Part shown: one piece after another, positions 27,949 to 30,073 of the stretch
Layout: the number at the start of each line of letters is the position of its first letter
Position numbering within the stretch: position 1 is the first letter of the stretch
Assembly (NCBI GenBank): GCA_012510495.1
Contig: JAAZHX010000034.1
Span: 1 to 64,000, forward strand
From: Smithella sp.
GTDB taxonomy: Bacteria; Desulfobacterota; Syntrophia; Syntrophales; Smithellaceae
Reading direction: 5' to 3'
Length of the DNA stretch: 64,000 nucleotides
Program-made: the position numbers and the translations under genes
The notes under the pieces: model-generated
Seen by the model: only the letters and a program-made list of their open reading frames with translations
What the model was told of the DNA's origin: nothing
Database searches by the model: none

Positions 27949-29025
27949 ATGCACGCAGTCATTATGGCCGGAGGAAAAGGAACAAGGTTCTGGCCGCGCA
28001 GCCGGGAGAAAAAACCAAAGCACCTGCTGGACATTATCAGCGACCGGACAATGATTCAGGAAACTGTTGACCGGATCAGGCCGCTCATCAAACCCCGGAA
28101 TATTCTGATCGTGACGGGGAAAAAACATGCGCGGGAATTGATCAGGCAACTGCCGGAAGTTCCCGCGAAAAACATCATCATTGAACCGGTCGGGCGCAAC
28201 ACGGCGGCCTGCATCGGGCTGGCCGCCATCCACATTCAGAAAAAAGTCAAAGACGATGTTATGGTCGTCCTGCCGTCCGACCACGGCATTGCCGACCCTG
28301 ACCGGTACCGCAGCGTCATCGCCGCGGCGGTCCTGGCCGCCGAAAGAGAAAGCGCCCTGGTCACCATCGGTCTCACCCCCACCAGCCCGCATACCGGTTT
28401 CGGCTACATGGAGGGCGGCGCGTCCGCGGGAAAGGCGGCAGGGGAAAAGCTGCTGCGGGTGAAGGCGTTTCGCGAAAAGCCTGACCTGGAGCAGGCCCGG
28501 CTTTTTCTGCAAAGCGGCAATTTTTTCTGGAACAGCGGCATGTTCGTCTGGAAAGCTTCGGCCATCCTGAGAGAAATTGAAAAGTTCCTGCCGGATTTGC
28601 ACTCGGGACTGATGGCAATCCGCCCTTCCCTGGGAACTTCCTCCGAAGCCCGCACGGTGTCGAACATTTACAAAAACCTTGCGTCAGTTTCCATTGACCA
28701 CGGCGTGATGGAAAAAGCCAAAGACGTCTTCATGATTCCGGCCAGTTTCGGCTGGAGCGACGCGGGCAGCTGGGACACGCTGTGGGAAATCTCCCCGAAG
28801 GATCAAAAAGGCAACGCGCTTGCGGGAGGCTCGCAGGCCATTTTTGAGCAGGCCGAAAACACGTTCGTTTACAGCCCGGACAAGCTGGTGGCGCTAATCG
28901 GAATCAAGGATGTTCTGGTGGTTGAAACGAAAGACGCCCTGCTCGTCTGTAAAAGGGAGCGATCGCAGGACGTCAAGAAAATCGTGGACGCGCTGGAAGC
29001 GGAAGGAAAGCATCAGTTGCTTTGA
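27949..29025 (+). CDS. manC: Mannose-1-phosphate guanylyltransferase
   Basis: 358 residues. Nucleotidyltransferase signature HAVIMAGGKGTRFWPRS at the N-terminus, catalytic/metal stretch VVLPSDHGIAD, and FREKPDLEQA, NSGMFVWK and SIDHGVMEKA of the mannose-1-phosphate guanylyltransferase family. It makes GDP-mannose from GTP and mannose-1-phosphate for surface polysaccharides. The isomerase (cupin) domain of bifunctional ManC/AlgA proteins is absent, so it is the single-function form. AAAGGAG precedes the start. Its stop codon overlaps the 3' end of the convergent HMA gene by 13 bases. Confidence 0.92.
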   Translation: MHAVIMAGGKGTRFWPRSREKKPKHLLDIISDRTMIQETVDRIRPLIKPRNILIVTGKKHARELIRQLPEVPAKNIIIEPVGRNTAACIGLAAIHIQKKVKDDVMVVLPSDHGIADPDRYRSVIAAAVLAAERESALVTIGLTPTSPHTGFGYMEGGASAGKAAGEKLLRVKAFREKPDLEQARLFLQSGNFFWNSGMFVWKASAILREIEKFLPDLHSGLMAIRPSLGTSSEARTVSNIYKNLASVSIDHGVMEKAKDVFMIPASFGWSDAGSWDTLWEISPKDQKGNALAGGSQAIFEQAENTFVYSPDKLVALIGIKDVLVVETKDALLVCKRERSQDVKKIVDALEAEGKHQLL

Positions 29026-29336
29026 GTCTCGGCGGGAAAGGCCTTCAGATAAACCGGCCGTCCCTGCACAAAAAAATTGCCCGCCCGCAGCGCCTTGATG
29101 ATCGCGTCAGGGTCCGTCCTTTCGTCGTCATAGGCAATCACCAGTTTGTTCGGTCTTTGCGTCTGATGCTTTTGAACCCCGTCAATTTTCTTCAGGATAG
29201 TCCCTATCCTTCGGTTGGCGCCTCACGAAAAACACCCGGGCAACGTCAACTGCGCAAATCTCTCCGCCGCACCGGCCGTCCCGGCCGACAAGATCAGAAA
29301 TAAAAATATCGCAACCAGTCTCTTAATTTTTCTCAT
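29013..29336 (-). CDS. Exported heavy-metal-associated (HMA) domain protein, probable selenoprotein (CxxU)
   Basis: From ATG 29336 (AGGAAG upstream) to TGA 29013-29015 this frame has one internal TGA at codon 38 (29223-29225). Read as selenocysteine it gives 107 residues: a signal peptide (about 1-24, ending AGAA) and an HMA fold. The metal motif, normally GMxCxxC, is LPGCFSU, and what follows is HMA-like: ILKKIDGVQ, KLVIAYDDE, AIIKALRAG, then FVQGRP. The homology runs straight across the TGA, so it is not a chance stop. A hairpin of SECIS type begins 12 bases after the TGA. HMA proteins bind soft metals such as Hg, Cu or Cd; selenium in place of the second thiol would alter metal affinity or give redox activity. 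It is also possible that this is a pseudogene with a nonsense change. Confidence 0.8.
29194..29223 (-). promoter_or_regulatory. Candidate bacterial SECIS element
   Basis: On the minus strand the UGA (29225-29223) is followed by 12 bases and then a perfect 6-bp stem AGGATA/TATCCT with loop GGGAC (29194-29210). The loop begins 18 bases past the UGA and has G in its first two positions, in line with the general bacterial SECIS pattern (short stem, 16-37 bases downstream, G at the loop start). SelB would bind it to insert selenocysteine. Confidence 0.65.
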
Positions 29337-29420
29337 TTTGCGTCTTCCTGTCACCCATCGCTCATTGCTTCTTGCCATCTACTATTCCACGGCCTCAAAA
29401 AACGCAACGGCAATTTACAA

Positions 29421-29479: not shown

Positions 29480-30073
29480 ATGGTTCTGTCGCTATCGTAT
29501 CCCCTGATTCTGGCCTCCGCTTCGCCGCGCCGGAAAGAACTGCTCAACGCCGTCGGTTTGACATTCAAAATCCGTCCGACCGACGTGGATGAAACCGGTC
29601 TTCCCGATGAAAGCCCGCGAGCTCACGTCCGGCGGTTGTCCGGCGAAAAGGCGGCCGTCATCGCCAGCCGCTATCCGAAGGCCCTGGTCCTGGGTGCGGA
29701 CACCATTGTCGTGATCGACGGCCAAATCCTGGGCAAGCCCCGCAATCAAAAGCAGGCGCGCGTCATGCTGCGGCAATTGAGCAACCGAAAACACACGGTC
29801 TTTACGGGTTTTACGATTGTCTGCAAGCAAACGGGAGCCGCCAAAACGGGCGTCGTGCAGTCCGCCGTACACTTCAAGGAAATCAGTCCGGAAGAAATGG
29901 ACTGGTACGTCAACAGCCGGGAGCCGTATGACAAAGCCGGGGGCTATGCCGCCCAGGGCATGGGCGCGTCTTTCATCCGGTCCATCCGCGGCTCCTACAC
30001 CAACGTCATCGGGCTTCCCCTTTGCGAAATCGTGGAAGCGCTGAGATCCATGAACACCCTTCATTTCAGGTAA
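29480..30073 (+). CDS. maf: Maf family nucleotide pyrophosphatase
   Basis: 197 residues. Maf/HAM1-like fold with the N-terminal ILASASPRRKELL, the metal/phosphate motif VLGADTIVV and the SREPYDKAGGYAAQG signature. Members hydrolyse dTTP/UTP or modified NTPs (house-cleaning) and some affect division. The typical dTTP/UTPase (YhdE type) motif set is present. Four genes follow closely on the same strand; its 3' end is six bases from yggS. Confidence 0.95.
   Translation: MVLSLSYPLILASASPRRKELLNAVGLTFKIRPTDVDETGLPDESPRAHVRRLSGEKAAVIASRYPKALVLGADTIVVIDGQILGKPRNQKQARVMLRQLSNRKHTVFTGFTIVCKQTGAAKTGVVQSAVHFKEISPEEMDWYVNSREPYDKAGGYAAQGMGASFIRSIRGSYTNVIGLPLCEIVEALRSMNTLHFR

Follow-up and report, generated by a model that had tools for sequence, protein, structure and literature searches.

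The gene considered here lies on the minus strand of the window, a stretch of 64,000 nucleotides of DNA from Smithella sp. (Smithellaceae, Syntrophales, Thermodesulfobacteriota), between two genes on the plus strand. Its reading frame starts with an ATG at 29336–29334, contains an in-frame TGA at 29225–29223 and ends with a further TGA at 29015–29013. The features of the locus are as follows.

29013..29336, minus strand: gene for a predicted exported HMA-fold selenoprotein, 107 amino acids with UGA as Sec, stop codon TGA included
29344..29349, minus strand: AGGAAG, probable ribosome-binding site, 7 nt 5' of the ATG
29268..29336, minus strand: putative signal peptide, about residues 1–23, with a Lys/Arg start, a hydrophobic core and AGA before the likely cut
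29046..29264, minus strand: predicted HMA-fold domain, residues 25–97, strand-helix-strand-strand-helix-strand
29223..29234, minus strand: Cys35-Phe-Ser-Sec38 (C-x-x-U) motif
29223..29225, minus strand: in-frame UGA, taken from the family-wide comparison to be read as selenocysteine
29194..29210, minus strand: SECIS hairpin AGGATA-GGGAC-TATCCT, within the coding sequence
27949..29025, plus strand: convergent gene of the mannose-1-phosphate guanylyltransferase type (PF00483, PF22640), overlapping the 3' end of the selenoprotein gene by 13 bp
29480..30073, plus strand: divergent maf-like gene (PF02545)

A preliminary description of this DNA had proposed that a minus-strand gene is read through one UGA, and its open reading frame is borne out: the residues that it quoted match, and readthrough gives a product of 107 residues. 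The ribosome-binding site that it reported is likewise present, as AGGAAG at 29349–29344 ahead of the ATG. At 69 of the 81 loci of the family described below, the start that was chosen has an SD-like motif ahead of it, the start codons having been picked by a script with a preference for these motifs. A promoter scan gave a single promoter-like site on the minus strand (29354–29326), which overlaps the start of the gene and plays no part in the interpretation. Residues 1–23 resemble a signal peptide, suggesting that the protein is probably exported, and a strong hydrophobic stretch is found at the N-terminus in all 80 family loci tested (L026 was excluded).

A translated search of 99 genomes, the window's own among them, gave 84 matches in 73. 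Three of these (L102–L104, with E values of 4e-5 to 4e-4) contain Cys but by eye do not have the HMA layout, and were dropped. The 81 loci that were kept correspond to about 80 genes, with L026 and L067 looking like the two ends of one gene; they include a shortened member of 60 residues (L098). Matches occur in 14 of the 21 families sampled from the order, and the named relatives are Smithella, Smithellaceae, Syntrophaceae and Deltaproteobacteria MAGs. The column that holds the UGA is TGA at 78 of the 81 loci—70 with CxxU, seven with CxU and one with YxxU—and TGT at the remaining three, in keeping with the earlier proposal that homologues should carry Sec or Cys there. By row count, every one of the 73 matching genomes has one or more TGA loci in which conserved protein flanks the codon. 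The preliminary description had allowed for a sequencing error; the TGA is not such an error, because it recurs in frame across relatives.

Downstream of the UGA lies a hairpin with a stem of 6 bp and a loop of five bases. It begins at a distance of 12 nt where the motif is CxxU and of 15 nt where it is CxU. In the window it is found as it was first described, AGGATA-GGGAC-TATCCT at 29210–29194, with the stem starting at 12 nt. Folding, which had been put forward as a check, is unremarkable for this single sequence (z -0.04 over 48 nt and z -1.8 over 29 nt), so that the window alone is insufficient to prove the hairpin; it is the comparison across the 78 UGA loci that proves it. A perfect 6-bp stem is present at 74 of these 78 loci. 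When each protein was held fixed and its synonymous codons were redrawn by local codon use, 300 such resamplings averaged 4.1 loci with the stem and never exceeded 10. None of the three Cys loci has a perfect hairpin, and none was found after the 28 terminal TGA codons of the family that were checked. In the Cys paralogues (L077, L079 and L100) the corresponding region pairs at three to four of the six positions, as if decaying. A scan of the window with Rfam gave no matches at gathering scores.

The stem also covaries. Across 68 distinct CxxU sequences 99.3% of cells are paired, and five of the six stem pairs show changes on both sides, a level seen in none of 500 shuffles, the cells changed on both sides being few (9 of 408). 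Sliding the strands by one to three columns lowers pairing to 24–56%. The second base of the loop is G in all 69 CxxU sequences aligned as DNA, out of the 70 CxxU loci. Codon use tracks the hairpin rather than the protein: among the 70 CxxU loci, codon +6 is ATA in all 54 cases in which it encodes Ile, whereas for Ile at codon +13, which the hairpin does not cover, the codon is ATT in 29, ATC in 10 and ATA in two. Part of the conserved RIGxIL peptide is thus probably imposed by the hairpin.

All four genes of selenocysteine synthesis and insertion for which a search had been proposed are present in the genome of the window, with scores above the curated cut-offs for selA (595 bits), selB (358 bits), selD (367 bits) and tRNA-Sec (selC, 77 bits), the last with the anticodon tca. 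For this assembly the listed completeness is 100% and the listed contamination 6.56%. The selD match (L106, G000:C139:28656-29582) itself holds an in-frame TGA. Among relatives, selB is found in 91 of 99, and its co-occurrence with the gene is for that reason uninformative; the five gene-positive genomes that gave no selB match at E 1e-60 (G001, G003, G018, G044 and G058) are 67–85% complete. Together the UGA column, the hairpin and the sel genes strongly support the original interpretation, and on these comparative grounds the minus-strand gene at 29336–29013 almost certainly encodes a selenoprotein in which UGA is decoded as Sec.

The mature part of the protein had been described as HMA-like, and profile searches and structure prediction agree. 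At E ≤ 1e-3 the MerP model TIGR02052 hits 48 of the 49 members scanned, and the HMA model PF00403 hits 15 of 49 at E 1e-3; the protein alignment likewise comprises 49 of the 81 loci. For the window protein the scores are 34.3 bits (E 2.6e-8) with TIGR02052, below the curated cut-off of 92.55, and 15.6 bits with PF00403, below the gathering score of 24.8, and the NCBIfam scan gave no model above its cut-off. The AlphaFold2 model (five sequences; pLDDT 80.3) has the HMA order of elements, beta-alpha-beta-beta-alpha-beta, and in it Sec38, modelled as Cys, is the first residue of helix 1. The best match in Foldseek is the solved MerP structure 1osd (E 4.4e-4, TM 0.82 by target), with a probability of 1.00 to MerP and to Cu-ATPase domains. 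The predicted fold is thus of the HMA/MerP type. A plasmid search found three weak places, two annotated as merP and one as hypothetical, none of which spans 80% of the query.

The preliminary description equated the Sec position with the second Cys of the CxxC motif in HMA proteins. This placement was rejected on the basis of ungapped HMMER alignments and an equal spacing between two landmarks, a Gly (G) and a Gly-Val pair (GV). Eight HMA proteins of the Cys type from the phylum have their two Cys residues at G+3 and G+6, and GV follows 19 residues past the Gly. In the selenoprotein family, the Cys is at G+1 and the Sec at G+4, the distance from G to GV is equal to the canonical one, and the canonical CxxC positions are empty. 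The distance from Sec to GV is 15 at 68 of the 81 loci and 16 at five, with no GV found at the other eight. In this part HMMER aligns the family ungapped with the solved Cu-ATPase domains u13074 and u35880; opposite their GMTCxxC, Cys pairs with the Met and Sec with the first x. The CxxU pair therefore appears to sit two residues N-terminal of the canonical CxxC. However, hhalign disagrees, opening two gaps and pairing the Cys columns, and the HMMER alignment to domain 1 of u136227 (3.0 bits) is gapped likewise. Two other UGA-containing HMA candidates of the phylum have the codon at the canonical places: L161 (G121:C122) reads GMIUPAUP, a UxxU motif, and L162 (G129:C281) reads GMTCSGUP, a CxxU motif. 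With Sec at G+4, the family would therefore differ from these two in register, unless the gapped alignment is correct.

A midpoint-rooted tree of 79 of the 81 rows, built from 75 columns and with many forks unresolved, places the Cys forms at two points inside Sec clades: L077 with L079, and L100 joined to the CxU form L088. This nesting implies two changes from Sec to Cys, as read from the sequence tree; the genomes of L077, L079 and L100 each also have a Sec copy. The seven CxU rows group in a single clade (support 97/89), which also takes in one CxxU row and L100, a Cys row. In this clade the UGA is one codon further from the hairpin, and the position of the hairpin in the protein is unmoved. 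CxU is also found outside the order, so that either CxU or CxxU may be the older state.

At the level of the phylum, 75 of 394 genomes match at E 1e-6, many of them through ordinary HMA domains without a stop. Of 30 loci drawn from these matches 18 were read, and the nine of them that carry a UGA were searched for hairpins; UGA-bearing matches also occur at G444:C183, G251:C31 and G211:C2, outside this set. One (L120), from the same order, is CxxU; L119, L121, L122 and L129 are CxU, L123 has GGU and L124–L126 have GVVU. A free search found stems of seven to eight pairs in L119, L120, L123, L126 and L129, and only five pairs, unconvincing alone, in L121, L122, L124 and L125, so that a hairpin is doubtful in four of the nine. 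The UGA is kept without a partner Cys where that position is Tyr (L092), Gly (L123) or Val (L124–L126).

The flanks of the gene are of the maf/manC/yggS type at 62 of the 81 loci, and at 48 the maf-type and manC-type genes occur together; both neighbours in the window belong to this setting. It amounts to a conserved genomic location, not a functional operon. The near genes of the other 19 loci were judged by eye, with a Pfam scan of eight neighbours from seven loci, and no mer operon was recognised beside the gene at any of the 81. In L088 the gene lies 36 nt past a gene of the dihydrolipoyl-dehydrogenase type (flavin disulfide-reductase type), and a SurA-type gene lies 6 nt ahead in L096, where it was scanned, and in L101 of the same cluster. 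A gene or gene piece for an HMA/E1-E2 metal-type ATPase is found 1.1–3.2 kb away at three loci (L095, L078 and, as the hydrolase part, L074). In one family of the order the HMA-Sec domain, of the CxU form, is fused to a Thioredoxin_9 domain (L082:1467-2201 and L094:3590-4324).

The explanation that we prefer, with a probability of roughly 0.6, makes the gene product a periplasmic selenoprotein with the HMA/MerP fold, which has its Sec directed by the hairpin and binds a soft metal. The UGA would be decoded as Sec by SelB and tRNA-Sec under the control of the hairpin 12 nt downstream. The protein would then be exported, leaving the mature HMA/MerP-fold domain in the periplasm, where the Cys-x-x-Sec pair would lie on the loop that leads into helix 1, shifted by two residues towards the N-terminus from the canonical CxxC. 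There the thiol/selenolate pair would bind Hg(II), Cu(I) or a similar soft metal, and the protein may act in sequestration or hand-over in the manner of MerP or CopZ, here outside any mer operon. Metal binding is our first choice for the function, held with a little more belief than doubt. The metal-type ATPase neighbours count weakly towards it, as they are too few (three of 81 loci) and too far away. Against it, the members that have lost the partner Cys (L092, L123 and L124–L126) are a poor fit to binding by two ligands, and the two fusions to a thioredoxin-like domain point to redox. Also counted against the preferred explanation are the maf/manC/yggS-type setting with no recognised mer operon, the empty canonical CxxC positions, the MerP and HMA cut-offs that the window protein misses, and the doubtful hairpin in four of the nine more distant UGA loci.

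The same selenoprotein might instead have a redox function, for which there is a real though clearly smaller chance. Cys and Sec would form a selenenylsulfide at the start of helix 1, and the pair would act as a periplasmic reductase or peroxidase partner. Such a role fits with Sec opening helix 1 in the predicted model and with the Thioredoxin_9 fusions of L082 and L094; in addition, a 2026 review (PMC13188914) states that most uncharacterised selenoproteins probably have redox functions and that CxxU is redox-related. The flavoenzyme gene ahead of L088 also suggests it, but is a single case. The predicted fold, however, is of a metal-binding type and not that of thioredoxin, and the absence of a partner Cys in L092 and L123–L126 tells against a selenenylsulfide as well.

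Readings in which UGA does not encode Sec have next to no probability. An ordinary stop whose downstream part is a leftover or an independent short ORF, or else a sequencing error, would agree with the unexceptional folding of the single hairpin sequence, but not with an in-frame TGA at this column between conserved protein in all 73 matching genomes, nor with a hairpin that covaries and is missing after all 28 terminal TGA codons. Decoding as another residue, through a change of code to TGA=Trp or natural readthrough, is just as implausible: the frame is open whatever TGA means, but the same gene ends in TGA, 28 terminal TGA codons of the family have no hairpin, homologues substitute Cys rather than Trp, the Cys forms have no hairpin, and the genome has the complete Sec apparatus, including a tRNA-Sec whose anticodon is tca. 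Sequencing error, plain stop and TGA=Trp were accordingly rejected on the recurrent TGA, the covarying hairpin, the Cys substitution and the terminal TGA.

The periplasmic selenoprotein favoured here can be compared with several known systems. MerP (TIGR02052; solved as 1osd and 1afi), a periplasmic mercury-binding protein, is the best NCBIfam profile and fold match of the family and likewise has a signal-peptide-like start and one HMA domain. Unlike MerP, the window protein has no CxxC at G+3/G+6, has its Sec at G+4 and has no recognised mer operon. The UxxU_metal_bind (seleno)protein NF041115 also has an HMA-type domain able to carry Sec, but the window protein scores 12.3 bits against a curated cut-off of 95; L161, with two UGAs at the canonical G+3/G+6, reaches 67.1 bits, still below it. 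NF045683, a MerT/CopZ fusion-like heavy metal transport selenoprotein, matches five of 49 members weakly; in those inspected the match falls on the C-terminal portion of the model. In contrast to it, the window protein is single-domain, lacks the MerT part and scores 13.5 bits against 375. No match to NF045683 above its cut-off was found among 197 genomes of the phylum, nor any at E 1e-20 in the genome of the window.

In the literature, Table 2 of the 2008 GOS survey (PMC2398784) includes, under selenoprotein families that had been described before, a row for "Mercuric transport protein MerP" with two sequences, no domain, zero Cys homologues and no motif in the table. Having no domain and no Cys homologues is how the window family might behave, and the two may be the same. 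The HMA-related selenoproteins in the accessible text of the 2026 review are NF041115 (UxxU) and a mercuric transport entry, PF02411, with C/SxxU; a term search of that text gave neither 'MerP' nor 'HMA'. The same two kinds, and no 'MerP', are found in the accessible text of a 2022 review (PMC9312934), and in that of a 2025 prediction paper (PMC12013277) a term search found no MerP, HMA or mercur-. Text searches of the literature returned nothing closer by title. The preliminary description had spoken of a new type of selenoprotein. The selenoprotein part of this claim stands; the type is not wholly new, because HMA-type selenoproteins are already known in NCBIfam (NF041115 and NF045683) and a "MerP" selenoprotein appears in the 2008 table. 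The window family is rather a variant with Sec off the canonical CxxC position.

A bolder suggestion, offered tentatively, is that an HMA family gave up the canonical CxxC and rebuilt a selenium-based reactive site two residues upstream, of which Sec is the part least often lost: the partner Cys may be replaced by Tyr, Val or Gly, and the Sec may lie one codon off while the hairpin stays where it is. This could have produced a soft-metal trap with one selenolate, or given a ferredoxin-like fold a selenol chemistry of a new kind, either of which would be old in this order of syntrophs.

The UGA splits the gene, and the window protein falls under every NCBIfam cut-off. The family forms a natural experiment, with two Sec-to-Cys changes accompanied by loss of the hairpin and a UGA shifted by one codon while the hairpin has not moved, and the spacing rules of SECIS elements and the use of selenium in a metal-binding fold thereby become directly testable. 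Its UGA and RNA hairpin are conserved through much of a bacterial order, and it gives the syntrophic bacteria of anaerobic environments one more selenoprotein, widespread and probably exported. Among the more distant relatives, the N-terminal stretch of L122 (L122:1441-1758) holds LLSC, which is lipoprotein-like, and this protein may therefore be membrane-anchored.
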